The translations under genes and the position numbers were made by a program. The notes below the pieces were generated by a model. The model ran no database searches. It was not told where the DNA came from and saw nothing but the letters and a program-made list of their open reading frames with translations. Of a stretch of DNA of 64,000 nt, positions 7,830 through 59,225 are shown in pieces. Each line of letters begins with the position of its first letter. Position 1 is the stretch's first letter. Source of the DNA: Artocarpus heterophyllus (taxonomy: Eukaryota; Streptophyta; Magnoliopsida; Rosales; Moraceae); assembly GCA_025403435.1 (NCBI GenBank), contig CM046350.1, forward strand, positions 29,417,346 to 29,481,345, written 5' to 3'.

Positions 7830-7954
7830 CGGCAGGCCGGTGTTCTTCCGACCGGCAGGCCGAATATGGAGAAATGTTCGACAGGCCGAACCTTGCTTCC
7901 GGCAGGCCGAACTGTGCAGTTCGGCAGGCCGAAGCAGGGCGTCCGACAGGCCGA
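7830..7954 (+). repeat. phased GC-rich motif array in the A 5' LTR, six copies
   Basis: Six copies of CGRCAGGCCGR start at 7830, 7853, 7879, 7900, 7922 and 7944. Spacings are 23, 26, 21, 22 and 22 bp. The array is strikingly GC-rich in an AT-rich LTR. It lies before the putative splice donor, so it may be part of the leader RNA as well as DNA. Function unknown. Confidence 0.9.
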
Positions 7955-8205
7955 CCGAGGCATGGAAAATTTTGTGATTTTTACCCGTTTCCACTGTTTT
8001 GAACCCTGATTTAAACCCCAACCTTATAGGATGATTTTAAATGTACAAATGGCACACTAGGACATCATGAAGTGATTTAGTGACATAGAATGTCTCAAAC
8101 TAGATATTGATCGACTTAGTTTGTATCTTGGATCGTTCGTGGTTCCGCAGAGCTAACGTATAGCGGGCCGGGATTTCGGTGTGGGGCACCGGCACGAGTA
8201 TTGAG

Positions 8206-8730
8206 GTAGGACTTCTATCCTATTTCTTTGGTAGCCTGGTTTTGAAATGATTTGGCTTTGAAAATGATTTCTATCAAAATGTTTTCAACGGTTGTTTGAA
8301 AATGGTTTTATCGGTTATATTTTAATATACCGTGATTATGAAATGAATTTCATAATGAATGTAATTGACAACACTCGGTAATTGGGTTTTGAATGACAAT
8401 GATAATAAACACTAAGGCATGATGCCATATCAGAGATCGGGTCGTGTAGCGATCGACCTTGGGGGCAGGTTCCGAAACCCAGCTGGGCCACTACGGTGGT
8501 GATATCATGGTTTGCCTAGGTAAAAGTAAAATGGTGTTTTGATTTGACGAGTAGACTGTTCTGTGTCAGGACGGTTCTACTCAAATTTATTTATTCATTT
8601 ATATATTTAAGTTTTCCTTTGAGTAACTCCTAAACAATGACATGTTTCTTTGCATTAAATTATTTTATAAAATTTAGTCCTACTAAGCCTTTCGCTCACG
8701 TTTTATCTGTTTTAAATTTCCCCCCTCTAG
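8206..8730 (+). other. candidate intron inside the A 5' LTR
   Basis: Donor GAG|GTAGGA and a pyrimidine-rich acceptor CCCCCCTCTAG|G. The same pair recurs in the 3' LTR at 15097-15621 (also 525 bp), and in element B. Inference only; splicing is not shown by sequence. Confidence 0.5.
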
Positions 8731-9107
8731 GTGGTTTCCCTTTTAGGTTTGGAGAAGATTCTTCGGACCGAACTCAGGAGCAATAGGAGAATTTATTTAT
8801 ATTATGTATTATTTAATCAAGGCATGTAAGACTTTAACTTTATTTGTACTTGGACTGTAATTGTATTTATGATATTGTCAGAACCATGTGTGTGCACAAG
8901 TTGTGGGTTGTGGAACCCATACTCGCGGTTTTTATTTTATTATTATTATTTGCTTAATATTTACAAATTCTTTTTATCAAATGTGGTGGAAAATCTCTTT
9001 ATTTCTCACTTAATTGGATTTGTAAACCCTTAATTTCAATTAAATCCTCTTTTAATTAATCTAAATATTTCGCCACATCACCTCCCGTACTCCGGGGCGT
9101 GACAGAA

Positions 9108-9119
9108 TGGTATCAGAGC
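9108..9119 (+). other. primer-binding site of element A
   Basis: TGGTATCAGAGC lies three bases after the 5' LTR. It is the standard plant retrotransposon primer site complementary to the initiator tRNA-Met 3' end. Confidence 0.95.
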
Positions 9120-9209
9120 TCAAGGTTATGAACCTTGGGAATTGTGCACACATAGGTTTGACAATAAAATACCTCTGACAGTCCAAATTTTGTTTTCAGA
9201 AGTGAGAGA

Positions 9210-12200
9210 ATGGCACCTAGACGTCGTTCAACTGCTGACGTCGAGTTCGGAAATGATGAGAGCCTGATGAGGTCTATGTTTGCGGCTTTTCGGCAGATGG
9301 CAGCCAGGGCTAGACCAGATGACTCCAGTGTTGGTAGTCGGTATGCTTTCTTTAAGGAATTTCGGCGGGCGTCTATTCCGACTTTTGATGGTAATGGGGA
9401 CCCGCAGTTAGCTGAATATTGGTTGGATTCGATCTTGAAGCATCTAGATACTCTTGGTGTGCCTGAGGAGTATCGTGTGGAATTCGCGGCTTATAAGCTC
9501 GAGGGTGGCGCTAACACCTGGTGGAAACAAACTAAGCGTCTGGAGCGCGGTGAAGATATCGGTTGGGACAAGTTTGAGGAGCTATTCTATGATCGGTATT
9601 TTCCGCAGGGATATAGAGACCAGAAGGCAGCTGAGTTTTATAGATTGCAGCAGGGTGATATGTCAGTTCGGGAGTATGAGGCATAATTTAATGAGTTGGC
9701 TAGGTTTGCTCCATCAGCGGTGGCATCGGAGCGCGAGAAATGTATTAAGTTTCAGGAAGGACTCAAGGCTCCTATTCGACGGCAGTTGGTTGCTCTACGG
9801 CTTAGGAGTTTCGGAGAGCTTGTGTCATCGGCGATCTCCATGGAGAATGATTATGTGCAGTATTGTGACGACCGAGCCAAGGCTTCAGGAGGACCGCAGA
9901 GGAGTGGCAGGAAGAGCACCAGTAGTCGTCCAGCTCCGGGGAAAGGCAAGCAAGGCGGTGCGACCAGTGGCAGCAGCAGTTCGTCTGGCAGCGGGCGCAG
10001 CAATCCCTACAGCTTTCATTGTCATTTTTGTCAGCAGCCCCGACACATCAAGAGGAATTGCCCGATCAGGAGTGCTCATCTTGGATCGTAGACCGGGGAG
10101 GATGCCAGTCGTTCGTCTCAGCTTTAGCCTCAGACCCTACCTCCGCCTTCGCAGTACCCGCAGTTGCAGTATCCGTAGTTTTCTCCTCAGCAATTCTCAT
10201 ATCCGGCACGGGGGCAGCAGCCGCAATATATTCAGCGCAGTGTTCCTCAGTATAGAGCTCCGAGTACAGGTAGTGTGTAGTCGTCTCCATCTCAGCAGCA
10301 TCGCCCGAGTAATCCGGGACCCAGTAATGTCGGTAGAGGAAAAGGGAAAGCGCCAGTGCAGGTTCATGCAATGGCATCTGGAGGGTCAGATTCTCAGACT
10401 GGTAACGCGGTTGTCGATGGTATGATTTTGGTTTCTAGATCCTTAGCTAGTGTTTTATTCGATACCGGTGCCTCTCATTCTCTCATTTCGAGTTCTTTTG
10501 TACATGCCTTGGGATTAGAAATAGAAGAGTTTAATGAACCCCTAGTCATAACTTCTCCCTTGGGGCGGGTGTGTGTGAATTGTATGTGTAAATCATGTAA
10601 AATAAAGATTGGGGATGAGATTTTGAAAAGTGATTTGATTGTACTCCCTATGAGTTCCTATGATGTGATTTTAGGGATGGACTGGTTGTCCAGGTATAGT
10701 GCAGTCGTGGACTGCCAACTTAGAAAAGTGACCCTAGTGTCTGATAGGGGGACAGTAATCACTTACCAGGGTGGTGGTGATTGGCTAATGAGTGAGCGTC
10801 TTATGAAGTCGTGTTTAGGAGGGCGAAGGAATCTAGATTGTTTTGCTTTTCTTGCCAATCTAGATTGTGAGCCCTATGTTTCGGGTGGCAGTGTAGCGAT
10901 TTCGGTGGTTGATGAGTTCGAGGATGTTTTCCCCGATGAGTTGCCAGGATTACCACCGCATCGGGAGATTGAGTTTGGTATCGAGTTGTTTCCAAGGACA
11001 TCACCGATTTCTATGGCACCTTATCGGATGACGCCGGCAGAAATGAAGGAATTGAGGAGGCAACTTCAGGAGCTTGCTGATAAAGGATATATTCGAAATA
11101 GCACATCTCCGTGGGGAGCACCAGTTTTGTTTGCTAAGAAGTACGATGGGACTCTCAGGTTATGTGTGGATTATCGGCAGCTAAATCGTGTTACGGTGAA
11201 GAACAAGTATCCTTTGCCTAGGATTGATGAGCTATTTGATCAATTGGGAGGTTCGCGATACTTCTCGAAGATTGATTTGCGTTCAGGTTATCATCAGCTC
11301 AGGATCAAGGAAGGGGATATTCCCAAGACAATTTTTAGGACTCGGTATGGGCATTTCGAGTTTCTGGTCATGTCTTTTGGGTTGACGAATGCTCCAGCAG
11401 CTTTTATGGATCTGATAAACAGGGTATTTAGGCCGTATCTGGATCAGTTTGTGATCGTGTTCATCGATGATATTCTTGTGTATTCTAAGACTTGGGAGGA
11501 GCATGAGCAGCATCTTCAGATCGTGCTTCAGACTCTGCGGGAGCACCAGTTGTATGCTAAGAGGGAAAAATGTGAGTTCTGGTTGACTGAGGTCAAATTT
11601 CTGGGTCATGTTATCTCAGAGCATGGTATTTCAGTGGATCCGTCCAAAATTGAAGCTATATTGGGGTGGGAACGACCAAGGAATGTAGCAGAGATTTGCA
11701 GCTTCTTAGGTCTTGCTGGATATTACAGGAAGTTTGCAAAGGATTTTTCGAAGATTGTAGCTCCGTTGACGAGATTGATCAAGAAAAACGTCAGGTTTGA
11801 GTGGGATGAAGATTGTGAGTCTGCTTTTCAGGAATTGAAGAACCGGTTGACTTCAGCTCCAGTGTTGATTATTCCTAGCAATGACGAGCCGTATGAGGTT
11901 TATGCTGATGCTTCAGGGCGCGGACTTGGATGCGTGTTGATGTAGCATGGGCGTGTAGTTGCGTACGGATCAAGATAGCTACGACCTCACGAGCGAAATT
12001 ATCCTACTCACGATTTAGAGCTCGCGGCGGTGATTTACGCGCTGAAGATTTGGAGGTGTTATTTGTATGGAGCATCATTTCAGGTCTTCTCCGATCACAA
12101 GAGTTTGGGATATTTGTTCACTCAGAGGGATCTCAACTTGAGGCAGCGCAGATGGGTGGAGTACATGGAGGATTATGATTTCGCTTTGCAGTATCATCCC

Positions 12201-13802
12201 GGGAAAGCTAATGTGGTCGCGGACGCGCTTAGCAGGAAGTCTTCAGGGGTTCTCGCTTGTTTGATTTTTGAGGACTGGAGCAGGGATGCGACAGTGAGTG
12301 AGTATCGGCTACTGTATCATGAAGAGGGTGATCGAGTTTCGTTATATCATGTGGAAGCGACTCCAGCTCTTGTTCGGATGGTGAAGAAAAGTCAGTGGCA
12401 GGATCGGCATTTGCAGGGGATTTGGTCGCGGATTCGAAACGGGGAGCAGTTTGAAGAATGGAGCGTGCATGCAGATGGATCGTTGTACTTTCGGGAGCGC
12501 CTTGCAGTTCCAGTTATCGCCGAGGTGACGAAAGCCGTTCTAGACGAAGCTCATAGGTCCCAGTTCTCTATTCATCCGGGGAGCACCAAGATGTATCGTG
12601 ATTTGAAGAGGCAGTATTGGTGGAGAGGCATGAAGAAAGATGTTCGCGAGTACGTGGCCAAGTGTTCGACGTGTCTTCAGGTGAAAGCCGAGCATCAGAA
12701 GCCTGTAGGTCAGCTTCAGCCGCTTCCTATTCCAGGGTGGAAATGGGAGCATGTGACGATGGATTTCCTCACAGGTTTGCCGAGGACGGAGCAGCGGCAT
12801 GATGCAGTTTGGGTTGTGGTCGACAGGTTGACGAAATCGACGCATTTCATTCCATTTAGGTCGACGTGTTCGAGGAAGATTCTCGAGGAGTTGTATATGC
12901 AGAACATTGTGAGGTTGCATGGAGTTTCTTTGTCCATCACCTCTGATCGAGACACCAGGTTTAATGCTAAGTACTGGAGGAGTTTTCAAGAGGCTATGGG
13001 TACAGATTTGAACTTCTGTACGGCGTTTCATCCTCAGACTGATGGGCAGTCTGAGCGGGTTATCCAGGTTCTCGAGGATATGTTGCGTGCTTGTGCGTTG
13101 GACTTCGGCGGGAATTGGAAGCAATGTTTGCATTTGGCGGAGTTTGCGTACAACAACAGTTATCAGGCGAGTATCGGTATGGCACCATTTGAGGCATTGT
13201 ATGGGCGACCGTGTCGGTCACCTGTGTGTTGGGCCGAGCCAGAAGATAGGGTTATTCTTGGGCCGGATGAGATTCGTGATAGCAACGAGAAAGTTGAGGT
13301 GATTCGGGATCGGTTGAGAGCAGCTCAGAGTCGGCAGAAGAGTTACGCAGATAGGAGACGTAGACCCTTAGAGTTTGCGGTTGGAGATTTTGTTCTCTTG
13401 AGGGTGTCGCCTCGTAAGGGAACTATGCGGTTCGGGGTGAGTGGGAAGCTCACGTCGAGGTATATTGGGCCGTTCGAGATCACTCAGCGTGTTGGCGTGG
13501 TCGCTTATCGGCTTAATCTTCCGCCCGAACTTTCTCATGTGCACGATGTGTTTCATGTGTCGATGCTTAGGAAATGTCCACCTGGGCAGGATAAGATAGT
13601 TTCGTTTCGCGATGTACAGGTTCAAGAGGATACGACGTACGAAGAAGTGCCGATTCAGATTATCGACCAGAAAGTGATTAGTTTGCGTCGTCGTGAGATA
13701 CCGTTGGTGAAAGTCGTGTGGCAGCATCATGGGGTTGATGAAGCCACTTGGGAGCTAGAGTCGAGTATGCGGGAGCTGTATCCGCATTTGTTTTGTTTTT
13801 GA
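9210..13802 (+). pseudogene. gag-pol of element A with seven premature stops
   Basis: A single frame encodes, in order: Gag capsid-like region (from MAPRRRSTADVEF), CCHC zinc knuckle (nt 10020-10061), aspartic protease with DTGAS (Asp at 10461), reverse transcriptase with the catalytic FIDD (11460-11471), RNase H (YADASG at 11901), integrase with its HHCC finger (His from 12552, Cys at 12663 and 12672), DDE residues (Asp near 12762 and 12945, Glu at 13053), and a chromodomain-like C-terminus ending PHLFCF. There are no frameshifts. Stops interrupt at 9684 (TAA) and at 10089, 10125, 10176, 10278, 11943 and 11976 (all TAG). Element B reads CAG at five of these six TAG sites. From 12030 to the end the frame is intact. 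Without the stops this would be a typical Tekay/Del polyprotein. Confidence 0.95.
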
Positions 13803-13837
13803 AGTGAGTTGTAAATTTCGAGGGCGAAATTTCTTTT

Positions 13838-13850
13838 AGGGGTGGAGAGT
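13838..13850 (+). other. polypurine tract of element A
   Basis: AGGGGTGGAGAGT directly abuts the 3' LTR and would prime plus-strand synthesis. The same tract occurs in element B on the minus strand. Confidence 0.9.
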
Positions 13851-15995
13851 TGTAACGCCCTAAAATTTATTTAATGTTAATGTACTATAAATGATGAATT
13901 AGTGTGCCATAATTAACGTTTTAACATTAATTAGATTATTGGGTTGGATTTTGAATTTTTGGTTGTTTTGTTAAATCAATGCATTTAAATGATTTCTTAT
14001 TGTTTTAAAATGATGTTTTGAGTTTTAAAACACAACAATTTGTAAAATGTTAAAATACTCCGTTTTACAAAACCGTGGGCGGCACATGGTTTTCGCACAG
14101 TAAAATCGCCCACCGATTTTCTCTATTTATTTCCTTTTTCTCTCTCTCTCCTCACTTCCACGCTCACTCTCTCTCTCTCTTCTCTCATCTCTCTCGGCAA
14201 TCTCCCTCTCTCTCAATCTCTCTAAAATTTTTGAACTCCATTTCGAATCCAAGCTTCGGGACAGCAAGGAGGAAGCTCGGGGACGTGATTCGGCAACCGA
14301 GATCGCGGATTGAAGCTTCGATTCGAGGTTAGATTCGAAATTTCTAAACTTTCTACAAAATTTTCAATTTTGTGTATTTTTGAAATCTAGGGTTGTTTAA
14401 GCTTAGAAAACCATGGATTTGAGTTAAATGAACTTAGAACAACTAGAATCTAAGCTTAGATTGAAGAAAAACGGATTGAATTCAAGATTTTTCATTTTTC
14501 CCCTCATTTTCTTTTTTTTTCGGATTTTTGAGGATTTTGAGCTTAAATCTTGTTTAAATGATTCCAAACATGTTCTAGAATGTTTTTCTATCAAGTATAA
14601 TTGTTTTTCATGCCTGGGAATTGAGAAAAACAGGTTAGAATCAAGATTTGGATTTTGGGGATCGAGAAACCCGTGGTTGGGATTTCTGGATTTTCCCAGT
14701 TCGGCAGGCCGGAGTGATGATCGGCAGGCCGGTGTTCTTCCGACCGGCAGGCCGAATCTGGGGAAATGTTCGACAGGCCGAACCTTGCTTCCGGCAGGCC
14801 GAACTGTGCAGTTCGACAGGCCGAAGCAGGGCGTCCGATAGGCCGACCGAGGCATGGAAAATTTTGTGATTTTTACCCGTTTCCACTGTTTTGAACCCTG
14901 ATTTAAACCCCAACCTTATAGGATGATTTTAAATGTACAAATGGCACACTAGGACATCATGAAGTGATTTAGTGACATAGAATGTCTCAAACTAGATATT
15001 GATCGACTTAGTTTGTATCTTGGATCGTTCGTGGTTCCGCGAGCTAACGTATAGCGGGCCGGGATTACGGTGTGGGGCACCGGCACGAGTATTGAGGTAG
15101 GACTTCTATCCTATTTCTTTGGTAGCCTGGTTTTGAAATGATTTGGCTTTGAAAATGATTTCTATCAAAATATTTTCAACGGTTGTTTGAAAATGGTTTT
15201 ATCGGTTATATTTTAATATACCGTGATTATGAAATGAATTTCATAATGAATGTAATTGACAACACTCGGTAATTGGGTTTTGAATGACAATGATAATAAA
15301 CACTAAGGCATGATGCCATATCAGAGATCGGGTCGTGTAGCGATCGACCTTGGGGGCAGGTCCCGAAACCCAGCTGGGCCACTACGGTGGTGATATCATG
15401 GTTTGCCTAGGTAAAAGTAAAATGGTGTTTTGATTTAACGAGTAGACTGTTCTGTGTCAGGACGGTTCTACTCAAATTTATTTATTCATTTATTTATTTA
15501 AGTTTTCCTTTGAGTAACTCCTAAACAATGACATGTTTCTTTGCATTAAATTATTTTATAAAATTTAGTCCTACTAAGCCTTTCGCTCACGTTTTATCTG
15601 TTTTAAATTTCCCCCCTCTAGGTGGTTTCCCTTTTAGGTTTGGAGAAGATTCTTCGGACCGAACTCAGGAGCAATAGGAGAATTTATTTATATTCTGTAT
15701 TATTTAATCAAGGCATGTAAGACTTTAACTTTATTTGTACTTAGACTGTAATTGTATTTATGATATTGTCAGAACCATATGTGTGCACAAGTTGTGGGTT
15801 GTGGAACCCATACTCGCGGTTTTTATTTTATTATTATTATTTGCTTAATATTTACAAATTCTTTTTATCAAATGTGGTGGAAAATCTCTTTATTTCTCTC
15901 TTAATTGGATTTGTAAACCCTTAATTTCAATTAAATCCTCTTTTAATTAATCCAAATATTTCGTCACGTCACCTTCCATACTCCGGGACGTGACA
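13851..15995 (+). repeat. 3' LTR of element A
   Basis: 2,145 bp, TG...CA ends. It is longer than the 5' LTR mainly because of one extra array unit at 14712-14731. Candidate intron at 15097-15621. Differences from the 5' LTR are mostly transitions. Confidence 0.95.
14702..14846 (+). repeat. phased GC-rich motif array in the A 3' LTR, seven copies
   Basis: Copies start at 14702, 14722, 14745, 14771, 14792, 14814 and 14836. Compared with the 5' LTR array, one 20-bp unit has been gained or lost. The last copy carries CGATAGG where the 5' LTR has CGACAGG, a C-to-T change. Confidence 0.9.
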
Positions 15996-18363: not shown

Positions 18364-20560
18364 TGTCACGCGCCTAGAGTACGGGAGGTGACGTGGCAGA
18401 TTATTTAAATCAATCAAAAGGAGAATTTGATTAAAACCAAGAAATTTAGGGATTAAATTAATTATAAAAAAATGTAAAAGTTCCAAAACAACATTGTATA
18501 AAAGAGTTCATAGACATTAAGCACGTGAAATCATTAAGCGAATAATAAATTAATAAAGACTACGAGTATGGGTCCCACCGACCCACAACTTGTGCATACA
18601 CATTGTACTGACAATATAATAATACAACTACAGTCCAAGTACAAAGAAAATTAAAAACATTACATGCCTTGGTTAAGTAATACAAAATGATCTACTAATC
18701 CTCCTACTGCTCCTGAGTTCGGTCCATTAAATCCTCTCTGAACCTAAATGGGAAACCACCTAGGAGGAAATTTAAAAACAAAGAAAATGTGAGTGAAAGG
18801 CTTAGTAGGGCTATGTTTTAATAAATCATTTAATTTAAAGGAAAATCTCATTATTCAGGGAATTATATAAAAGAAACATTAAATAAATAAATAAATTCAA
18901 ATAAAACTGTTCTCATCCAAAACAGTTTATTAGGTTGACCAGAAACATCATTTTCATTTTTCTAGGCAAACCATAGGAATATCACCACCGTAGTGGCCTA
19001 GCTGGGTTTCAGGACCTGCCCCCAAGATCGATCGCTATACGACCCGATCTCTAATATGGCATCATGCCTTTATGTTTATTCTCACCATTAATCAAAACCC
19101 ATTTATCGAGTTTTATCATTTACATTCATTATGAAGTTCATTTCATTTCACGGTTTATTAAAATATAACCGATAAATTCATTTTCAATCAACTGTTGGAA
19201 ACATTTTTATAGAAACCCCTTTTTAAAGCCAGATCATTTTGAAACTGGTTACCAAAGATAGGGTAGAAGTCCTACCTCGATACTCGTGCTGGTACCCCAC
19301 ACCGTAATCCTAGTCCGCTATACGTTAGCTCTGCGGAACCACGAACGACTCTAGATACACACTAAGTCAATCAATATCTAGTTCGAGACATTCTATGTTA
19401 CTAAACTATTCCATGATGTCCTAGTGTGCCATTTATATCTTTAAAATCATTTTACAAGATTGGAATTTAAATCGGGGTTCAAAACAGTAAAAATGGGTAA
19501 AAAATCACAAAATTTCCCATGCTCTGCTGGCCTACCGGACTTCCTGCTTCGGCCGGCCAAACTATGCAGTTCGGCCTGCCAAAAATCAGGTCCGGTCGGC
19601 CGAACATTTCCCAGGTTCGGCCTGTTGAACGGTGTAGTTTGGCCTGCCGATCCTTTGAATCCGGCCTGCCGAACACGTAGTTCGGCCTACCGAACTGGAA
19701 AAACCCAGAAATCCCAACCCCGGGTTTTGGTTCTCCCAAAATCTAAATCTTGATTTTAACCTGTTTTTCTCAAATCTCAGGCATGGAAAACAATCATAGA
19801 TGATAGAAAAACATACTAGAACACTTTTGGACTCATTTAAACAAGATTTAAACACAAAAATCTCAAAAATCCAAAAATGGGAAAAAATGAGGAAAAATGA
19901 AAAATCTTGAATCTAATCTGTTTTTCTTCAATCTAAGCTTGGATTCTAGGTGTTCTAAGTTCATTTAACTTAAACCAAGAGTTTTCTAAGCTCAAACAAA
20001 CTTAAATTTCAAAAATACACAAAAATTGAAAATTTTGAAAAAGTTTAGAAATTTTAAAACTAACATCAAATCGAAGCTTCAATCCACGTTATTGGTTGCA
20101 AAATCACGTTCCCGAGCTTCCTCCTTGCTAACCCGAAGCTTGGATTCAAATTTTGATTCAAAAATCTCAAAGAAATTTGAGAGGGAAGGAGGGAGACCGA
20201 GAGAGAAGGAGAGAGGGAGCCTCACGGGAGGAGAGAGAGAGATCAGAGAGAGTGAGAGAAAGAGAGTGAGAGAGAGAGAATAAATAGAGAAAAACGATGG
20301 GCAATTTTACTGTGCGAAAACCATGTGCCACCCACGGTTTTGTAAAACGGAATATTTTTAACATTTTACAAATTGTTGTGTTTTAAAACTCAAAACATCA
20401 TTTTAAAACAGCAAAAAATCATTTGATTTTATTAAATTAACAAAACAACCTAAAATTTAAAATTCAACCAAATAATCAAATTAATGTTGAAACATTAATT
20501 ATGGCACACTAATTCGTCATTTACATTACAATAACATTAAATAAATCTCGGGGCGTTACA
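18364..20560 (-). repeat. 3' LTR of element B
   Basis: 2,197 bp. On the plus strand it reads TGTCACGCG...CGTTACA. It contains an eight-copy phased motif array (19528-19692) and a candidate LTR intron at 19275-18760 (GAG|GTAGG ... CCTAG|G). Confidence 0.93.
19528..19692 (-). repeat. phased GC-rich motif array in the B 3' LTR, eight copies
   Basis: Copies of the GGCCTGCC-type core on the plus strand start at 19528, 19549, 19571, 19592, 19617, 19640, 19661 and 19682. Spacings are 21, 22, 21, 25, 23, 21 and 21 bp. This is the reverse complement of the motif in element A, as expected from the opposite orientation. Confidence 0.9.
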
Positions 20561-20574
20561 ACTCTCCACCCCTA
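20561..20574 (-). other. polypurine tract of element B
   Basis: The minus strand reads AGGGGTGGAGAGT next to the LTR, the same tract as in element A. Confidence 0.85.
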
Positions 20575-20608
20575 AAAGAAATTTCGCCCTCGAAATTTAC
20601 ATCTCATT

Positions 20609-23600: not shown

Positions 23601-25169
23601 TAACCAATCACCACCACCCTGGTAAGTGATCATCGTCCCCCTATCAGAAACTAGGGTCACTTTTCTAAGTTGACAGTCTACAACTGCATTATATCTGGAC
23701 AACCAGTCCATCCCTAGAATTACATCATAGGAGCTCATGGGGAGTATAATCAAATCACTTTTCAAAATCTCATCCCCAATCTTTATTTTGCAAGATTTAC
23801 ATACACAATTCACACACACCTGCCTCAAGGGAGAAGTTATGACTAAGGGTTCATTAAACTCTTCTATATCTAATCCCAAGGCATGTACAAAGGAACTCGA
23901 AATGAGAGAATGAGAGGCACCTGTATCAAATAAAACACGAGCTAAGGATCGAGAAACTAAGATCGTACCATCGACAACCGCGTTATTAGTCTGAGAATCT
24001 GAACCTCCAGATGCCATTGCATGAACCTGCACTGGTGCCTTTCCTTTTTCTCTACCAACATTGCTGGTTCTGGGATTATTTTGTCGATGCTGCTAGGATG
24101 GAGACGACTGCACGCTAGCTGTACTCGGTGCTCGATACTGAGGGACACTGCGCTGGAAATGCTGCGGCTGCTGCCCTCGTGCCGGATATGAAATCTACTG
24201 AGGGAAAAACTGAGGATACTGTAACTGTAGATACTGCTGAGGCTGAGGTAGGGTCTGAGGCTGACACTAACGACTGGCATCCTCCCTGGTCTGAGATCCA
24301 AGACTGGCACTCCTGATTGGGCAATTTCTCTTGATGTGTCTGGGCTGCTGATAGAAATGACAATGGAAGCTGTAGGGATTGTTGCGCCCGCTACCAGACG
24401 AACTACTGCTACCACTATTCACGCCACCTTGCTTGCTCTTCCCCAGAGTTGGATGGCTGTTGGTGCTCTTCCTACCGCTCCTCTGCGATCCTCTTGAAGC
24501 TTTTGCTCGATCCTCACAATACTGCGCATAGTCATTTTTCACTGATATTGCTGACAACATAAGCTCTCCAAAACTCCTAAGTCGCAGAGCAACCAACTGT
24601 CACCGAATAGGAGCCTTGAGCCCTTTCTGAAACTTAATGCACTTGTCACGCTCCGATGCCACAGCTGATGGAGCAAACCTAGCCAACTCATTACTTGCCT
24701 CATATTCCCGGACTGACAAATCACCCTGTTGCAACCTGTAGAACTCAGCTGCCTTCTGATCTCTATACCCTTGCAAAAAATATCGATCATAGAACAGCTC
24801 CTTGAATCTGTCCCAATTGATTTCACTACCGTGCTCCAAACGCTTAGCCTGTTTCCACCAAGTGTTAGCACCACCCTCAAGCTTATACGCAACAAACTCC
24901 ACACGATATTCCTCAGGCACACCAAGGGTATCCAAATGCTTCACGATCGAATCTAGCCAATATTCTGTCAACTACGGATCCCCATTACCGTCAAAAGTCA
25001 GAATAGACGCACGTAGAAATTCCTTAAAGTACGTATGCCGACGACCAACATCAGAATCCTCCGGTCTAGCCTTAGCTGCCATCTGCCAGAAAGCCGCAAA
25101 CAAAGATCTCATCATGCCCTCATCGTTTCCGAACTCAGCGTCAGCTATCGAACGACGTCTAGGCGCCAT
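20609..25169 (-). pseudogene. gag-pol of element B, degenerate
   Basis: Reads from MAPRRRSIADAEF (25169) to PHLFCF (20609) in the same domain order as element A. Recognisable parts are the Gag capsid, a zinc-knuckle region in which the second Cys is Tyr (HCHFYQQP), protease DTGAS, reverse transcriptase with FIDD intact, RNase H YAD, the integrase finger and core, and the chromodomain-like tail. Breaks include TAG at 24972, TGA at 24600, TAG at 24267 and 22197, and others near 24200, 24095, 21935-21950 and 21576. A one-base insertion near 23300 is balanced by a one-base deletion near 22727. Non-functional. Confidence 0.93.
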
Positions 25170-25259
25170 TCTCTCACTTCTGAAAACAAAATTTGGACTG
25201 TCAGAGGTATTTCAATGTCATACCTATATGTGCACAATTCCTAAGGTTCATAACCTTGA

Positions 25260-25271: not shown

Positions 25272-25274
25272 TTC

Positions 25275-27647
25275 TGTCACGCCCCAGAGTACGAGAGGTG
25301 ACGTGACAGATTATTTAAATCAATCAAAAGGAGAATTTGATTAAAACCAAGAATTTTAGGGATTAAATTAATTATAAAAAAATGTAAAAGTTCCAAAACA
25401 ACATTGTATAAAAGAGTTTATAGACATTAAGCACATGAAATAATTAAGCGAATAATAAATTAATAAAGAACCGCGAGTATGGGTCCCACCGACCCACAAC
25501 TTGTGCACACACATTGTACTGACAATATAATAATACAACTACAGTCCAAGCACAAAGAAAATTAAAAACATTACATGCCTTGATTAAGTAATACAAAATG
25601 ATATACTAATCCTCCTACTGCTCCTGAGTTCGGTCCGTTGAATCCTCTCTGAACCTAAATGGGAAACCACCTAGGGGGAAATTTAAAAACAAAGAAAATG
25701 TGAGCGAAAGGCTCAGTAGGACTATGTTTTAACAAATCATTTAATTTAAAGAAAAATCTCATTATTTAGGGAATTATATAAAATAAACATTAAATAAATA
25801 AATAAATTCAAATAAAACCGCTCTCACCCAAAACAGTTTATTAGGTCAACCAGAAACATCATGTTTATTTTTCTAGGCAAACCATAAGAATATCACCACC
25901 GTAGTGGCCCAACTGGGTTTCGGACCTGCCCCCAAAGTCGATCACTACACGACCCGATCTCTGATATGGCATCATGCCTTTATGTTTATTCTCACCATTA
26001 ATCAAAACCCATTAACCGAGTTTTATCATTTACATTCATTATGAAGTTCATTTCATTTCACAGTTTATTAAAATATAACCGATAAATTCATTTTCAATCA
26101 ACCGTTGGAAACATTTTTATGAAAACCCCTTTTTAAAGCCAGATCATTTTGAAACTGGTTACCAAAGATAGGGTAGAAGTCCTACCTCGATACTCATGCT
26201 GGTACCCCACACCATAATCCTGGTCCCCTATACGTTAGCTCCGCGGAACCACGAACGACCCTAGATACACACTAAGTCGATCAATATCTAGTTCGAGACA
26301 TTCTATGTTACTAAACTATTCCATGATGTCCTAGTGTGCTATTTATATCTTTAAAATCATTTTACAAGATTGAAATTTAAATCGGGGGTTCAAAACAGTG
26401 AAAACGGGTGAAAAATCACAAAATTTTCCATGCTTTGTCGCCCTGCCGGACTCCCTGTTTCGGCCGGTCGAACTGTGTAGTTTGGCCTACCGAAAATCAG
26501 GTCCGGTCGGCCGGACATTTCTCAGGTTTGGCCTGCCGAACGGTGCAGTCCGGCCTATCTTTAAAATCATTTTACAAGATTGGAATTTAAATCAGGGTTC
26601 AAAACAGTAAAAACAAGTGAAAAATCATAAAATTTCCCAAGCTCTGTCGGTCTACCGGACTCCCTACTTCGGCCGGCCGAACTGTGCAGTTCGGCCTACC
26701 AAAAATCAGGTCCGGTCGGCCAGACATTTCTCAAGTTCGGCCTGCCGAACGGTGCAGTCCGGCCTATCGATCCTTTGAATCTGACCTGCCGAACTGAAAA
26801 AACCCAGAAATCCCAACCACGGGTTTTGGTTCTCCCAAAATCCAAATCTTGATTTTAACCTGTTTTTCTCAAATATCATGCATGAAAAACAATCATAGAT
26901 GATAGAAAAACATACTAGAACACTTTTGAACTCATTTAAACAAGATTTAAACACAAAAATTGAAAAAATTGAAAAATGGGAAAAATGAGGAAAAATAAAA
27001 AATCTTGAATCTAATCCATTTTTCTTCAATCTAAGCTTGGATTCTAGGTGTTCTAAGTTCATTTAACTCAAACCAAGAGTTTTCTAAGCTCAAACGAACT
27101 TAAATTTCAAAAATGTACAAAAATAAAAAAAATTTTGAAAAAGTTTAGAAATTTCAAATCTAACCTCGAATCGAAGCTTCAATCCGCATTATTGGTTGTC
27201 CAATCACGTTCCTGAGCTTCCTCCTTGCTAACCCGAAGCTTGGATTCAAATTTTGATTCAAAAATCTCAAAGAAATTTGAGAGGGAAAGAGGGAGACCGA
27301 GAGAGAAGGAGAGAGGGAGCCTCACGGGAGGAGAGAGAGAGATCAGAGAGAGTGAGAGAGAGGGAATAAATAGAGAAAAACGGTGGGCAGTTTTACTGTG
27401 CGAAAACCATGTGCCACCCACGGTTTTGTAAAACGGAATATTTTTAACATTTTACAAATTGTTGTGTTTTAAAACTCAAAACATCATTTTAAAACAGTAA
27501 GAAATCATTTGATTTTATTAAATTAACAAAACAACCTAAAATTCAAAATTCAACCAAATAATCAAATTAATATTGAAACATTAATTATGGCACACTAATT
27601 CATCATTTACATTACAATAACATTAAATAAATTTTAGGGACGTTACA
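25275..27647 (-). repeat. 5' LTR of element B
   Basis: 2,373 bp. It is about 176 bp longer than its partner because of an internal tandem duplication at 26351-26770. Confidence 0.93.
26351..26770 (-). repeat. 210-bp tandem duplication doubling the motif array in the B 5' LTR
   Basis: TTAAAATCATTTTACAAGAT begins at 26351 and again at 26561. Each unit carries several copies of the phased GC-rich motif. The junction shares TATCT with the sequence before the first unit, suggesting microhomology or slippage. The partner LTR lacks the duplication, so it arose after insertion or during replication. Confidence 0.85.
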
Positions 27648-42830: not shown

Positions 42831-42866
<36 letters not shown>

Positions 42867-44896: not shown

Positions 44897-47800
44897 TATC
44901 ACAACCCGCCTTTTCGGGCTATGATAAAACTCTTTCTTACTTACTTTAGGGCAAAAACTTATTAAATTTTTTTTTTAATAAATACTTTACAAATACTGGT
45001 CTAATAACTTCTGAAATACAAACATATACTTGTATTTACATAATCATCTTTTCTTTGCAATATAGTTTATCAAACATTACTTTCAAAATATCTTTAAACA
45101 CAATACAACGGAAACATACTGTGGCAGAAACCATACCCAGTCTGCACACATCATCCGTCCGTCAGCTCATCATTACGATTTATTCTGACCTTCTTGTCGG
45201 AATACCTACAGCATGAAAAACTTAATGAGCTAACGCTTAGTAAGTCTCATAAATCCCACATGGACATTCAAATAAATGCATGAATCAATTATGCTTTCTT
45301 ATAAACTTTCCTTATCTTCATCATTTCTTATCTTTACTAGGGCCCAAGTGTTCGTACTATTGCGAAATTTCATTTAGGTCTACGTAACACCGTGACCATA
45401 CTATATCCTTTAAACTCCCTTTGAATCAGGAGTCGGTACGACACTTTTCTTAATTTCTGGTGACATATTTACCAGTCCATTTATTATGGTTAACATACCA
45501 TATATGATGTGATAATCACATGTTATCCATAACACATAAATTTACTTGCATAGCATAGTACACACAAGTACTTACTTTATATACATATAGGTATTCATTA
45601 TTGTACATACAGATACATAACATTCAATACACATAGGTATTCATCATTGTACACACAGGTACGTAATGTATTGTACATGTCGATACATAACATATTATAC
45701 CTTCAGGTATTTTAATCGTATACTCATAGGTATTCATACATGACTATACCCCTAAGTATTTATATCATGGCAAACATACAAGTTTACACCGTAATATACA
45801 CTCAAGTGTACATATACATACATCCTATACCTACATTTTCATACTGTAGGTGGGAAGGATACTTACTTGTGCTTGTGTACCGAAAAATCAACTTCGGTCT
45901 CCTTTCTCCTAGGCTCCTAGGATCCTATTGGCCAATTACAAAACTATTAGCCAATTCCACTACGTTTCGTTACAAAACATTCGTTACTTAACTAGTCGAG
46001 TTGCATAACCGTATACAACTCTGAAACCACTGGTTTCTTTCTTTCTACCTTACTTTACCCTACCGTTACTTACGAAGGGTGGATATCTTCCAAATCATCT
46101 TTTTATCTCATTGAAAACATTTATGAGCTGTTCTGGTTATTCGAGCAAAAATGACAATTTTGCCCTCTATAAGCCTACTGACTTACCTAAGCTTGATTTC
46201 GTTATTGTAATAAAAATAGCCACATATTAACTTTAAATTAATGCTCTAGTGGCTCGTATCTTGTGCCCATTTTCTATAAAACTTTACATTTTAGTCCCTA
46301 AACTGAAAATTTTTGACAATTTTGCCCCCCAGGCTAAAATTTTTCTCTTTGTATCAAAATTTCCTATTTTTCTTAAGGATTATTTTTGCTCAAAGTACCA
46401 TATTCAAAATCGTTTGGGAAGTGACCTTTTTTTTCTTTTTTAAAATTTTTCACAATTTTTGTAAATTCTTTGAAAAATCAAAATCTCACAAACGATTTAG
46501 TTTTTCGATGAACCGTTCGCAATGCCTAACAGTTTCATCGAGATCTACAACTTTTATGTTTTAACTTTTCCCAAATCTCACTGTACAGGATATTTTTGGC
46601 AATTTTTCAATTCTGCTGAGAGAAATCTTTTTCTTTCAATTTAGTCCCTACGGTATTTTTACAAAAATCCATTTCAAAATTATAAATCTACCCCTGCAGA
46701 AACCGTTCCATGCTTTATTCAAATCATTCTCATGGGCAAACATCATTTTTGCAAAGTCTAACATCAAAATTACAAAAATAATGCTTTTTGCAAAAATTAC
46801 CATTTTGCACCATAAATCAAAATTTCACAACTTACACATGCCATACCTCATATATGTATGAAATTTCATCAAGTACATGCTCAAGAACCCTTATGGGTTT
46901 AAAAGAATAGAAATCAAAACAAAATCCATAAAATTTCAAAAATTTAAAATTCAAAACTTACCAAAATAACACCCTTTTGGTTTCAAGCCTTCAAAATCCC
47001 TTTGAACTCCCTCCTAAGCTTCCTTTTCATGCAAAAATTTGATGGATTAATCTTTCTCTTCAACCCATGAAAAATCCCTTGAAAACTCATTAAAAAGTTT
47101 AGGATTTTACCTTAAAACTTGTGGAAAATCCTTGTACTTGCTTGTAAAACTTGTTTGGCTTTGAGAAATTTTTTTGAGAGCTTCCTTCAATGGCTGCCGG
47201 AGCTAAGGATGAAGAAAGAAATGATTTTTTTTGCTAAAATCACATTAATTTCACACTTATCCAAATGGGTGACTCATGGGGTAATCAAGTGGGTTACCCT
47301 AGGTGGCATCATGCTATTGGGCCACATTGCATGGCTTGTTGGCCCAATATAATTCAAGTAAGTGTCCACTTTATGGAGTTAAAAATTTACACTGTGTAAT
47401 TTTTCACCACATAGTATTTTTTCTATACTGTCGTAGTCAAATCAATCTACTTTCTATCTTTAGACTGTATAAACATATTTGACTTACTTTTTGTTCACTT
47501 TTGGAGGCCAATCGTGACATTTTCTGTATCTGCGTTTTCACTTAGTAGTATTCTTATACTGCTCTGGCATCTTTCTTCATTGGGTTAGGTCTCAGAGGAC
47601 TCTATATCATATTTATATTCTTTATACCCATGTGTTTATATCACAATTTTACAATTAATTGTGATATAAAATTTATTTTATGGATATTATTTATAATTTT
47701 TTGAGTAATTAAACTCATAAAATCTATATTTGACAATATCCAACATTGCATCACATTTGTCATGAAATTTGCAATCAATGCCGTTTATTCATACTTTATC

Positions 47801-47902: not shown

Positions 47903-48619
47903 GACCTTTATTTAATGACCGTTTCTCAAAAACTGTCGTAATAAGAAAAAAAAAAAAGCAACGAGTTATGCCTGCTAAGACGAAAATCGTCATAGTATTG
48001 GTGGGAGCTACCACGATAGTTTTTTAAAAAACTGTCCTGTAAGATTAAACCTTTCACTACGATTTTTATAAAACCGTCGTGGAAGGTTTTAAAATCTTTA
48101 GAAAATTTAATCTTTCACGACGGTTTTTATAAAAACCATTGTGGAAGGTTTGGATGTTTGAAATTTTTAGTATCTTGCCTAATTAAACCTTTCACGACAG
48201 TTTTTATAAAAACCGTCGTGGAAGGTTCTGCATGTTTGAAATTTTTAGTAGCCCGCCAAAATTTAATCTTTCACGAAGGTTAAATTTGGGCGGGAAACTA
48301 AAAATTTCAAACATACAAACCTTCAACGATGGTTTTTATAAAAACCATCGTGAAAGGTTAAATTTGGCAACATTTTAAAATTTTCAAACAAGAGGACCTT
48401 CCACGACGGTTTTTGTGAAAGGCCTTTCACGACGATTTTTGTAAAAACCGTTGTGGAAGCCACTGGGCCTTTCACTTTCATGATGTTTTTTACAAAAACC
48501 GTCGTAGAAGGTCCTCATGTTTGAAATTTTTAGTATGTCGCCAAATTTAACCTTTCACGACGGTTTTTTGGAAGGTTTGTATGTTTGAAATTTTTAGTTT
48601 CCCGCCCAAATTTAACCTT
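47903..48619. repeat. left subterminal hairpin-repeat array of the CACTA element
   Basis: About eight copies of CACGACGGTTTTT, mostly paired with AAAAACCGTCGTG through a short TATA/TG spacer (e.g. 48054-48090, 48114-48152, 48190-48225, 48320-48355, 48480-48512). Subterminal repeats of this kind are where CACTA transposases are known to bind. Confidence 0.88.
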
Positions 48620-48624
48620 CGTGA

Positions 48625-50642
48625 GTTGGAAACAAAGTGCGCATTGGAATTTTAAAAATTTTTCATCAGAGTATTTTCCAAAACACAAGTTTGACATGAT
48701 ATATGTATAAATTAGACAGATCTTACTAACCTCAGTGTGCCGAAGAACCTCCGTAACCTGTGTAGAGAAGTAACGTTCCAGAAGAGCCTCAACCAACTGG
48801 TCTTCTTTGCTATTCTCTATCCACAACCGGAGTGAGTGTGGGCTCACACGTACAGCTCTTCCACCGGTGACTCTCCTTCCAACCAATAGAGAGAACCCAA
48901 AGCTAGTGTTCGTGATTTGTGAACAAAAGCTCTCAGGGAGTTTTTCAGATGCTCACTAGAAGAGTATCACTCTTAATCTCTCAATTGATCTGAGTAAATC
49001 ATGAGACTCACTCCCTTTTTATAGCTATTGGTCCTGGGGTCAGTCCATATCAGATTAGGTCTCAAAAACTCGAAACAGAATCAAGTTCGGATCAGTATCT
49101 GATAAGATCCGCATAAAAACGCGTAATCTTATCTCCCGCTGATCGGCAGGCCGAACAGGCCAGTTAGGCAGGCCGACCACGTCATTCGACAGGCCAAACT
49201 CCCGAGAAAAAATCTCCACGAATCTTTTATTTTCCACCCGAGATTCTAAAGGATAAAGTCTCAGTTTTGATTCAAATAACCCAATAGAGAAGATATCTGA
49301 TCAAAACAAACTTTGTCAAGATAATCTCTAAGAAAATAAATCAATTCACAATAATTCTACAAGTTTATCTTGATCTAATTTGTCCAAAATTAAATCAACC
49401 AATAAACAGACAAGAATTATCTGATCGCAATAATTCAACAAGTTTATCTTGAACTAATTTCTTACAAAATTAATTCAACCAATAAACAGACATGAATTAT
49501 TTGATTCTTACAAATTTTAAACCAATCTGATAAATCCGACATAAGTCACCAATTATTAGAAAAAGCACGCCGTGTCGTTACAGGATTTTGTGAGCTAGCA
49601 AAGGGGACCAAAATGGACCTATAAAGTTCAAGCTCATGATAATTATGAAACCCAATATCCCAGATATACATTTCACAATTATCAACTCCAACGCTACTCC
49701 ACTAAAAGCTTGGAGCTGCACTCTCGAACTTTATAGAATTACGAAGCTCGTGTAGCTAAGTCTCCATGACATATCATAATGCATCGTATCCCCATATGAC
49801 AATCCATAATCGGCTTAAGGACAAGTTCTGTCTTACCTTCCTGATTACTTTTTATCTTACGTTCCATTGTCTCACCATTAGAAAACTTACCATCCATAGA
49901 TAGTATACCATTCGGTTACACCTATGTATCCAAATGGTTGAGCGCTCCTAGTTTTCCAATTACAGGACAACGCATATAAGATGATATCATTACTCCTAAA
50001 GAGGAGCTATGGATTCCATATCTATGAATAACAAGTCTACGCTATCAAGAGTCATGCCTCCAACGTACCGGCATGCATACCACTATTGAGATGTGGGTGT
50101 CACCCTTTGGCACATCAAAAGACACAAGTCGAGACAACGGGCCCACTATTCATCTCAGGATTAAGATATAATACAAATGACTGTCTAAAGTGAATCGATT
50201 TGCCAAGATAGAATTATTAATCCAAATCAATTCACTTTATGTCCCGATCCAACACATCGTCGCCTATGACAACGTGCCAATGTTTCTATTCACGGAGTCC
50301 AACTCCGATGGCCAAGACAAACCATCTCCCCAAAAGGGATATAGACAACATAACAATCTTTACATGAATAAAGCGCCCAACTTTATTCCCTCGATTGCGG
50401 ATCATATGTTTTAGACCATCACCTTAAGAATCGTGTCTACTGCATAATCATCCCATCATATGCCCAATTCTTAAGGTTTAGACTGACAGTCTCAAACTAC
50501 TATTTGCTTATCATACATTCAACAAATATGAACGTAAAGAGGACAAGATTTGGTATATATATAAATGAATAAATTCTTTATTGATAAAAATGTCTCCAAA
50601 AACGTATTACATTTTCACTCCTTAGGGCATACATGTCTAACA
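48625..50642 (-). mobile_element. Solo LTR D1, unrelated LTR family, inside the CACTA element
   Basis: 2,018 bp in minus orientation with target duplications CGTGA (48620-48624, 50643-50647). In element sense it runs TGTTAGACATGTATGCC ... TTTCCAAC. Homologous along its length to D2. Carries a short phased GC-rich array at 49144-49197 and a GAG|GTTAGT donor-like site near its 3' end. Superfamily not certain; TGTT...AACA ends suggest copia. Confidence 0.88.
49144..49197 (-). repeat. phased GC-rich motif array in D1, three copies
   Basis: CGGCAGGCCGA at 49144, AGGCAGGCCGA at 49166 and CGACAGGCCAA at 49187. Spacings are 22 and 21 bp. This is the same motif and pitch as in gypsy elements A and B, although the rest of the LTR is unrelated to theirs. 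Confidence 0.88.
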
Positions 50643-50647
50643 CGTGA

Positions 50648-52174
50648 AACATTAAATTTTGACGGGCTATTAAAAATTTCAAACATGCGAAAACCTTCCA
50701 CGACGGTTTTTGTAAAAACCGTCGTGAAAGGTTTAATTAAGCAGGATACTAAAAATTTCAAACATGAGTACCTTCCATGATAGTTTTTGTAAAAACCATC
50801 GTGGAAGACCTTTCACGACGGTTTTTATAAAAACCATCGTGGAAGGAGACCTTTCACGATAGTTTTTGCTAAAAACCGTCATGAAATATTCTGCATGTTC
50901 AAAATTGTTAGTATCCTGCCAAAATTTAATCCAGCGCCAACGACATGGCCTTCCCTATTTATTCAAAATTTCTCTAACTCAAACCCACTAACTCTCAAAC
51001 CCCTTTCTCTCTCTAACTCCTCCCCCCATGACCTAGCCATTGACGAAACCAACCCCCACGGCATTCCACCGACTTTGACATTCATCTATCACTCTCTTCA
51101 CTACCCACCTAATAAACCCGACGCCATTCACCACCGTTCATCCTCGTCCCTTGACATTCTATCGACTCCACCATCGTTCGACTTGTCTTTTGCCGTTCCA
51201 CCGACTCCACCGCCGTTGGTAAATTTCAAACCATTACTTTTAGTTTTAGCGTTATTGTTAGTTCTAAACTTAGTATTATTTGGTTATTTTAGTGTTATGT
51301 AGCTTTAGTTTTAGTTTTAATATTAGTTATATTAATTTGTTATTTGCCATTTAGTATGTGTTACTTGTATTTGGTGTTTGAAAGAACTTTGAACAACATT
51401 TAGCATTTTGGTGTGAGAATATGTTACTTTTTATATGTCTGTGATGTCTAAGTATTATTGTGATGCCCACCACATGTTTGATGAAAAGCTTCTATGACTG
51501 TGCGTTTGTATTTGTGTTTGTGTTTTAGTTAATTAATTTTATTTTCATTATTTTTGTTAATTATATTTATCTTTGTTTTTCTTTCTTTAGCTCACACATG
51601 ATAGCATGCATGGACTTAGACACCAAAAATCCATCAACTGTTGTGCAAGCATGAAAATAGTATATGACTTTACAATGTAAATATATATATGATTTTGCCA
51701 AAATTTTATAGTTCAATATAATTATGTGATTATGAAGTTAGGTCATTGTATTAATGGTGAAAACACGGGACCATTCATCCCGTGGGAAACCAAAAATTTT
51801 GGTTATTTTTTTTAGCTTCAGACCAACTTTTTCACGACGATTTTTAGTGAAACGGTCGTGAAACAAGAGTCTTACACAACGGTTTTCATAAAAACCGTCG
51901 TGAAAGGGCTTCCACGACGGTTTTTGTAAAAACCGTCGTGGAAGCCTCGGGGCCTTACAGACAGTTTTCATAAAAACCATTGTGTAAGCTTAGCTTTTCA
52001 CGACAGTTTTTAATAAAAACCGTCGTGGTAGCCTCGTCCTTAGATCCCATAACCCTACCAAAATAAAGAATCCACGACGGTAAAAAACCGTCGTAAAAAG
52101 TCCCATTGGTACTATGACGGATGATTACACGACGGTTTAAAAAACCGTTGTGTAATCTACAATTTCTACTAGTG
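50648..52174. repeat. right part of the CACTA element with subterminal hairpin repeats
   Basis: Hairpin units at about 50695-50885 and 51828-52152 repeat CACGACGGTTTTT/AAAAACCGTCGTG, ending in the CACTA terminus. The 51909-51944 unit is close to a perfect 36-bp palindrome. Confidence 0.88.
50895..51670 (+). other. possible captured or residual exon pair inside the CACTA element
   Basis: An open frame from 50895 is rich in Pro and Ser. Its likely end is a donor CCGTTG|GTAAAT near 51220, with a possible acceptor TTTCTTTAG|CTCAC near 51591. The product is not recognised. It could be a captured host leader or exon or the remnant of the transposon's own gene. Confidence 0.3.
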
Positions 52175-52205: not shown

Positions 52206-52207
52206 GT

Positions 52208-56100: not shown

Positions 56101-59100
56101 TAGAAGTGGTAAATAAATGGTCTGCATTGAAAAGTGTTACCGAGATCAGGAGTTTTTTTAGGTTTAGCGGGCTATTATAAATGTTTCATGGAAGGATTCT
56201 TTAGACTCGTAGCACCGCTTATAGCCCTTACTCGAAAGCAGTGAATTATGAATGGACTAAGAAGTGTGAAGAGAGTTTCCAAGAGTTAAAAAGGTGACTC
56301 ATAAGTACACCTGTGCTAACCATACCAGACCCAAACCTAGGAAATTTCGTAATTTATAGCGATGCATCAAAAATAGGCTTGGGAGCCATACTCATGCAAA
56401 ATGGAAAGGTGATAGCATATGCATCTCGATAACTAAAGGATCATGAAAGAAACTACCCAACGCATGACTTAGAATTAGCAGCAGTAGTGTTCGCATTGAA
56501 GATCTAGCACTACTACCTATATGAAGCTAAATGTGAGATTTATATTGACCATCAAATAGCTGATGCACTCAGTCCTGGAACAACGTCTTCTCTTACCATC
56601 ATGTAGTTGATACCAAAATCTCTTAAAAAAGATTTAATGGAAGCAGGAGTAGAGGTGATCACAGGAAGATTAGTTGATTTGTCATTTCGACCAACCATCT
56701 TGGAAAGTTTGAAGGAACGACAAGAAGCGGATTCTTCACTACTAAAATATAAAAATGAAGTCCTTGAGAACAAAGAATCAGAATTTAACATTTTGGAAGA
56801 TGGTATTCTCCGCTATAGGGGTAGGTTATGCATTCCCAATGATGAATGGTTAAAGAGACAGATACTAGAAGAAGCTCATAAGGCACCATACGCTATTTAT
56901 CCAAGAGCTGCCAAAATGTACAAGGACCTGAAGGAGCATTATTGGTGGTATGGAATGAAGAATGATGTTACACGATTCATCAATAAATGTCTTACTTGTC
57001 AAAACGTGAAAGCTGAACACCAGTGATTGGCAGACGAGCTGCAAAAGATCGAAATTCCAGAGTGAAAATGGGACCAGATAACTATGGATCTGGTGACCGG
57101 TCTACCTAAAAATATGGGAGGATATGACACTATCTCGGTAATTATGGATAGATTGACCAAATCGGTGCACTTTTTTCCCATTAAACTTAGCAGTTCTATA
57201 GAATGACTGGCTGAATTATACATCACTCAAATAGTAAGATACCATGGAGTCCCAAAATCCATCATTTCTTATTGGGATGGTCGATTTACCTCCAAGTTTT
57301 AGAGAAGCGTTCACCAAGCAATGGGAACAAAGCTGACATTTAGTACAGCTTTCCATCCACAAACGGATGGCCAGTTTAAAAGGACCATTCAAACTCTGGA
57401 GGATATGTTGAGAGCCTGCATACTAGATTTCAAAGGAGGATGGGATAAAAGGCTTCCACTAATTGAGTTTGCATAGAAAACAGCTATCAAACCTCCATAG
57501 GTATGGGCCCATGCGAAGCTGTCTACATAAGGAAAAGTAGATCGCCATTGCATTGGTATGAAACCAGGGAAAAGGCGTTATCGACCACAGATTTTGTTCA
57601 AAGAACAACATAAGATGTAAAGTTAATCCATTAATGGATGGAAACTACTTTTAGTCGGTAGAAGAGTTATGCTGATCAGCATCAAAAACCCTTAGAATTT
57701 CAAGTGAGGGACTATTAGACATGTATGCCCTAAGGAGTAAAAATGTAACAAGTTTTTAGAGACATTTTTATCAATAAAGAGTCTATTTATTGTTCATATA
57801 CCAAATCTTGTCCTCTTTATATTCATATTTGTGAAATGTATGTTAAGCAAATAATAGTCTAAGACTGTCGGTTTAAACTTTAAGAATTGAGCATATGATG
57901 GATAGATTATGCAGAAGACACGATTCTTAAGGTGATGGTCTAAATCGTAAGATCCACAATCGAGGAAATAAAGTTGGGCGCTTTATTCATGTAAAGATTG
58001 TTATGTTGTCTATATCCCTATTGGGAGATAGTTTGTCTTGACCATCGGAGGTGGACTCTGTGAATAGAAACATTGGCACGTTATTATAGGTGACGATGTG
58101 TTGGATCGGGACATAAAGTGAATTGATTTGGATTAATAATTTTGTCTTGGTAAATCGATTCACTTTAGACAATCATTTGTATTGTATCTTAATCTTGAGA
58201 TGAATAGTGGGTCTGTTGTCTTGACTTATGTCTTTTGATGTACTAAAGGGTGACACCTATATCTTAATAGTAGTATGCATGCTAGTACATTGGAGGCATA
58301 ACTTTTGATAACATAAACCAGTTATTCATAGATATGGAATCCATAGCTCCTCTTTAGGAGTAGTGATATCCTCTTATATGCATTATCCTGTAATTGGAAA
58401 ACTGGAACGCTCAACCATTTGGATACATAGGTGTAACTAAATGGTATATAGTCTTTGGATAGTAAGTTTTCTGATGGTGAGATAATAGAACGTAAGATAA
58501 AAATAATCGGGAAGATAAGACAGAACTTTTCCTTAAGCCGATTATGGATTAGCATATGGGGATATGATACACGATGATATGTCATGAAGATTTAGCTATA
58601 CGGGCTTCGTAATTCTATATAGTTCGAGAGTGCAGCTCCAAGCTTTTAGTGGAGTAGTGTTGGAGTTGATAATTATGATATGTATATTTAGGATATTAGG
58701 TTTTGTAATTATCAGAAGCTTGAACCATATAGGTCTATTTGGTCCCTTTTGCTAGCTCACAACATCCTGTAACGATACGATGTGCTTTTCCACCAATTGG
58801 TGACTTATGTCAGATTTATTAGATTGGTTGAAATTCGAAAGAATCAAATAATTCATGTCTGTTTATCGGTTGAATAAAGTTTGTGATAAAATTAATTCAA
58901 GATAAACTTGTTGAATTGTTGGGATCGGATAATTCTTATTTGTTTATCGGTTGATTTAATTTTTAATAAATTAGGTCAAGATAAACTTGTAGAATTATTA
59001 GGAATTCATTTATTTTCCTTGAGATTATCTAGATAAAGTTGTTTTAATCAGATAACTTTTTTATTGGGTTATTTGAATTAAAACTGAGACTTTATCCTAT

Positions 59101-59148
59101 AGAATCTTGGGTGAAAAATAAAATATTCGCTGAGATTTTAATCGGCAG

Positions 59149-59225
59149 TTCGGCATGTCGATTGTCATGTTCGGCCTGTCGATAAAGCCTGTTTGGCCTG
59201 TCAGTCATCCTGATCAGCCTGTCAA
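59149..59225 (+). repeat. phased GC-rich motif array in D2, four copies
   Basis: TTCGGCATGTCGA at 59149, TTCGGCCTGTCGA at 59170, TTTGGCCTGTCAG at 59192 and ATCAGCCTGTCAA at 59213. Spacings are 21, 22 and 21 bp. It sits upstream of the TATA box, a typical enhancer position. Confidence 0.88.

Follow-up and report, generated by a model that had tools for sequence, protein, structure and literature searches.

Spaced arrays of a near-palindromic 16-bp motif in the long terminal repeats of two retrotransposon families of Artocarpus heterophyllus

Retrotransposons and motif arrays of the window

The 64,000-nt stretch of Artocarpus heterophyllus DNA analysed here (assembly GCA_025403435.1, contig CM046350.1, positions 29,417,346 to 29,481,345 of the forward strand; hereafter the window) carries a G+C-rich, nearly symmetric motif that recurs at short steps inside the long terminal repeats (LTRs) of four insertions. 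Seven such arrays with 41 copies in register were found, and the copy number per LTR is the same as that given in an earlier reading of the letters alone (the sequence-only reading). Two of the insertions are full-length elements (A and B) and two are solo LTRs (D1 and D2); the LTRs of a further element (C) are included in the following list (TSD, target-site duplication; PBS, primer-binding site; steps in bp).

6979-15995 (+), element A, full-length Ty3/gypsy; TSD TGTGC/TGTGC, LTR ends and PBS, Pfam gag-pol domains
6979..9104 (+), 5' LTR of A; from self-blast, ends and PBS, and TSD
7827..7956 (+), array in the A 5' LTR, 6 copies; steps 23, 26, 21, 22, 22
13851..15995 (+), 3' LTR of A; 97% identity to the A 5' LTR
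14699..14848 (+), array in the A 3' LTR, 7 copies; steps 20, 23, 26, 21, 22, 22
18364-27647 (-), element B, full-length, of A's family; TSD GGTTT
18364..20560 (-), 3' LTR of B; from self-blast and LTR comparison with A
19525..19695 (-), array in the B 3' LTR, 8 copies; steps 21-22, one of 25
25275..27647 (-), 5' LTR of B; array doubled by a tandem duplication of 209 bp
26436..26563 (-), second half of the B 5' LTR array, 6 copies
26645..26794 (-), first half of the B 5' LTR array, 7 copies
48625..50642 (-), D1 solo LTR; TSD CGTGA/CGTGA
49141..49199 (-), array in D1, 3 copies; steps 22, 21; CTATAAAAAG (LTR nt 1619) lies 118 bp downstream of its end
57713..59743 (+), D2 solo LTR; TSD GGGAC/GGAAC (one mismatch); within the pol region of element C
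59148..59227 (+), array in D2, 4 copies, two of them degenerate; steps 21, 22, 21; CTATAAATAG (LTR nt 1631) lies about 117 bp downstream of its end
41942-44871 and 60191-63069, the two large LTRs of C, which share 88% identity

In element A the protease and reverse transcriptase (RT) domains (10356-11945) precede the integrase domains (11979-13802), the order that marks Ty3/gypsy elements, and the named homologues among the 120 listed for the RT frame are from flowering plants, at 46-69% identity. Element B matches A at 84.5% identity across 8.25 kb and their LTRs are 80-82% identical, which rules out two separate families; the sequence-only reading was right in placing both among gypsy elements, and the array is thus carried by two LTR families of the window and not more. 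No Pfam domains beyond gag-pol were detected in the A frames tested (6 proteins; 10 of 17 open frames), so that A encodes no candidate binding protein visible to these searches; in B the scan covered one frame. The duplication in the B 5' LTR lies at 26346-26768 (89% matches) and is absent from the other B LTR.

D1 and D2 are 86% identical, and both are solo LTRs without an internal region. The pol region of element C is broken by D2 (interrupted frames judged by eye), and C encloses D1, D2 and other insertions in a nested cluster. The C LTRs, a third LTR family, contain no array; of the three LTR families that were compared, two thus carry it, in four insertion events. Each D LTR also contains two tandem copies of a repeat of about 80 bp (49349-49505; 58848-59003), roughly 150 bp from the array. 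D1 is flanked by numerous palindromic repeats of the CACGACGGTTTTT-TAAAAACCGTCGTGG type (48102-48620; 50650-51944), which we take to resemble subterminal repeats of CACTA-type DNA transposons.

The repeat unit and its spacing

Counts over the 41 copies define the array unit as a 16-bp inverted repeat, GTTCGRC-NN-GYCGAAC, which extends the 14-mer of the sequence-only reading; at its outer positions 31 of the 41 copies have G and 26 have C, and degenerate copies are present among the units of B and D2. The steps between neighbouring copies are 21-22 bp in 26 of 34 cases, so that the spacing first described as almost always 21-22 bp is the prevailing one with eight departures (20, 23, 23, 25, 25, 25, 26 and 26 bp). 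The arrays have a G+C content of 0.51-0.65 versus 0.33-0.37 for the remaining LTR.

The core CGRCAGGCCGA matched the window 51 times at two or fewer mismatches on both strands, certain near-palindromic copies being scored twice, versus 5.0 matches expected, and none of 100 shuffles equalled that count. Inside the LTR arrays lie 47 of the 51 matches; the remaining four are at 12821, 20888, 27695 and 27885. When clusters were defined as at least three copies of the symmetric consensus with up to three mismatches at 20-26 bp steps, six were found in the window, whereas none appeared in random sequence matched to the composition of the window or to the dinucleotide composition of the array itself (20 x 64 kb each). 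D2 is not among the six clusters because two of its four copies are degenerate and the strict test detects just the other 2. A scan without a prior motif (exact 8-mers of at least three different letters recurring three or more times in 19-27 bp steps) detected this motif and no other, and only in the two arrays of A, the B and D arrays being too degenerate for exact 8-mers. Chance or a G+C effect is ruled out as the cause by the shuffles, the composition-matched random sequence and the 8-mer scan, and several near-identical short sites are present inside an LTR beyond chance, as is expected of an LTR-borne array of binding sites.

Steps of two helical turns had been taken to place all copies on one side of the DNA. 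At 10.5 bp per turn the vector strength is 0.96 for D, but only 0.39 and 0.47 for A and 0.18-0.27 for B; a common face is accordingly retained for D and ruled out in A and B, which reach 0.75-0.91 with a turn of 11.25 bp, a pitch that B-DNA does not usually have. The constraint thus looks local, from neighbour to neighbour, instead of one face across a whole array.

A coding origin of the repeat was rejected, since the alternation of 21 and 22 bp steps breaks the frame; the 143-aa open frame over the A 3' array gave 11 word-sharing candidates, none at E<=1. A tRNA-like element or another RNA family was likewise rejected, as the window yielded neither an Rfam family at gathering score nor a tRNA. 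A search of viral contigs with a three-copy pattern yielded 119 stretches, none of which fits the 14-bp motif at a summed eight or fewer mismatches, and these are read as chance (49 bp is the span of 122 of the 150 matches); among viral contigs encoding A's RT there were 9 pattern matches, none confirmed.

Sequence shared by the two families

Within arrays, the motif is homogeneous at 64-83% identity between copies and the spacers are near-random, at 29-38% over six columns on each side. Between A/B and D the motif is 71% identical and the spacer 29%, with 25% expected from composition. Whole-LTR blastn comparisons of A/B with D (best five matches per pair) gave two kinds of match at E<=0.001, namely the array, aligned on opposite strands, and a single AT-rich match of 21 nt; short matches of weaker score exist as well. 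The D1 array has its AG-centre strand opposite to the LTR strand, unlike A/B. Between the A 5' LTR and D1, the best match has 81% over 53 nt (E 1e-8) and joins opposite strands. In a spacer-shuffle test, the motif and steps were fixed and the spacers and 30-bp flanks were shuffled 500 times: in nine of the ten A/B-D pairs 204-481 of the 500 shuffles match the score, in the A 5' LTR-D1 pair 19 of 500 reach it, and in three same-family controls none of 500 does. As judged by these alignments, A/B and D have the motif and its spacing in common and no other visible homology. The proposal that the D LTR is unrelated to those of A and B is supported, as whole-LTR comparison at E<=0.001 gives nothing beyond the array and the 21-nt match, and the idea that the array was acquired or converged on separately fits with the lack of common spacers and flanks.

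Orthologous motif copies in LTRs of the same family are no better conserved than the LTR remainder: identities of motif, spacer and remainder are 0.78, 0.66 and 0.82 between the 3' LTRs of A and B, 0.77, 0.69 and 0.82 between the A 5' and B 3' LTRs, and 0.75, 0.69 and 0.88 between D1 and D2. Deviations at G/C positions are C>T or G>A in 42 of 46 cases (the copies are not independent), as decay through methylation would give, and methylation-driven decay after insertion is therefore a likely cause of the absent extra conservation of the motif.

Elsewhere in the window, an open frame at 3135-4175 (-) has 95 homologous proteins at E<=0.001, of which the best (80%) is unnamed; the named ones are called E3 ubiquitin-protein ligase LIN and include LIN-type ligases of flowering plants. 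The open frame at 1723-2643 (-) is perhaps part of the same LIN gene. A second tandem repeat of 22-bp period, TACATACAGGTATTCATCATTG, lies at 45582-45661 in 3.5 copies, its sequence being unrelated to the array.

Proposed role and comparison with known systems

We propose, at about even chances, that each array is a cluster of cis-regulatory docking sites, of the enhancer type, for a putative dimeric DNA-binding protein, and that the two LTR families gained it separately. What we infer in this proposal is binding, a dimer, cooperativity, activation and independent gain: the near-symmetric 16-bp inverted repeat would be read by a dimeric sequence-specific protein, three to eight units at 21-22 bp would allow adjacent dimers to be bound side by side and to touch, the array would recruit a transcription factor to the LTR as an enhancer, and it may have arisen independently in two LTR families of one genome.

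The D array ends about 117 bp upstream of a TATA box in both copies; the sequence-only reading had placed it just upstream of one. For A and B the likeliest TATA is at LTR nt 274-277 in all four LTRs, followed by pyrimidine-rich stretches (TATA boxes were chosen by eye, and each LTR has several further TATA-like strings), and the array follows some 575-590 bp further downstream, so that it would be in the transcribed leader. Two observations speak against an enhancer role, namely this placement, which is unlike that of D, and the lack of extra motif conservation described above. A DNA element working from either side of the promoter fits both placements.

The chief rival, in our estimate rather unlikely, is an anti-silencing target: the protein of another transposon would bind the dense motif arrays and remove DNA methylation, and unrelated LTR families that gained the motif would ride in trans. 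VANC proteins do bind motif arrays and remove DNA methylation for VANDAL elements, and in the portions of the two reports consulted their arrays have no fixed place and a variable number of units, with VANC6 motifs also present in a non-VANDAL element (PMC5735166; PMC10398659); here, too, the position relative to the promoter is not fixed and unit number differs between the two LTRs of A and likewise of B. Such a role is weakened by the failure to detect a candidate binder in A, where only gag-pol domains were seen in the frames tested, and by the description of VANC units, which are not called palindromic in the part of PMC5735166 consulted. The enhancer is the likelier of the two because the D array is promoter-proximal and because activator sites arose repeatedly in plant COPIA LTRs, according to the consulted part of PMC5059998. 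If instead a host protein or small interfering RNA (siRNA) pathway read the CG- and CHG-rich palindromes and seeded LTR methylation, the high G+C of the arrays and the mainly deamination-type deviations would be accounted for; we consider this improbable, since elements under selection would be expected to lose such sites, not to retain several in phase, and deamination marks are expected in every methylated LTR.

Similarly small is the chance that template switching or conversion carried a single array from one family to the other and that its spacers diverged afterwards: the A 5' LTR-D1 match would be the trace of it, but with ten tests a single pair at 19 of 500 is roughly as expected, and the other nine pairs are no better than the null. 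Still less probable is an RNA element whose copies pair within the transcript for packaging, dimerisation or stability. The arrays of the A and B 3' LTRs do fold better than shuffles (z -3.1 and z -6.1) and the A/B array may sit in the leader, but the D1 fold is unremarkable (z -1.25; 25 of 200 shuffles equally good), the D array is upstream of TATA, the window is without an Rfam family, and DNA palindromes yield pairing RNA in any case. The least probable reading, a functionless minisatellite expanded by slippage, draws on the gain or loss of units between LTRs of one element and on the 209-bp duplication in B; slippage would copy the spacer with the motif, yet the identities given above show that the whole unit is not what is repeated, and it would not give one motif in two families.

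Beyond the enhancer reading for each family, we suggest only tentatively that one dimeric host protein is a hub on which unrelated LTR families converged independently of one another through the palindrome and its 21-22 bp spacing, with promoter position left free, as a common code for activation or anti-silencing. The same long palindrome and step in two families without other LTR homology would point to one protein that is exploited by, or polices, several elements, and the array offers a ready means of locating further families in the genome.

Factor sites are frequent in LTR elements. The tandem activator boxes of Tnt1 and Tto1 are likewise repeated activator sites in a plant LTR, with a different motif and reported from one superfamily, and in HTLV-1 the repeat-to-repeat spacing of the Tax-responsive elements differs from their 21-bp repeat length. 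A LOB-domain factor, considered as a possible binder, led in the literature search only to unrelated bacterial work. The motif or array is not described in the literature searched for the motif and for arrays common to several LTR families, including the consulted parts of PMC5735166, PMC10398659, PMC5059998 and PMC5659011 (subscription papers were mostly outside the search), and the listed matches to the motif letters were unrelated to plant LTRs by title and abstract opening.

Three known systems can be set beside the arrays, each as described in the consulted portions of the reports cited. The HTLV-1 elements are 21-bp imperfect repeats acting as response elements in a retroelement promoter, but of another sequence and in an animal virus (PMC3287369). 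The VANC targets of VANDAL are dense single-motif arrays of variable unit number in non-coding transposon DNA, found also in a non-VANDAL element, whereas VANDAL elements are DNA transposons of the MULE type that have a VANC protein of their own, no counterpart of which was detected in the A frames tested, and the VANC motifs YAGTATTAY and AGTTGTMC are unlike the array motif (PMC5735166; PMC10398659); a VANC21 or VANC6 target array was rejected, as the 16-mer contains neither YAGTATTAY nor AGTTGTCC/AGTTGTAC (motifs per PMC5735166). The heat-response elements of ONSEN/COPIA78, COPIA37 and TERESTRA are clustered host-factor sites in plant LTRs with several independent gains, which partly arose by duplication of a proto-site; they consist of heat shock factor (HSF) nGAAn units at 5-bp steps (PMC5059998), whereas the palindrome here is 16 bp long, rich in G+C and repeated at steps of 21-22 bp, and the TTC and GAA of the 16-mer are 11 bp apart, off the 5-bp step of an HSF array (nGAAn/nTTCn).
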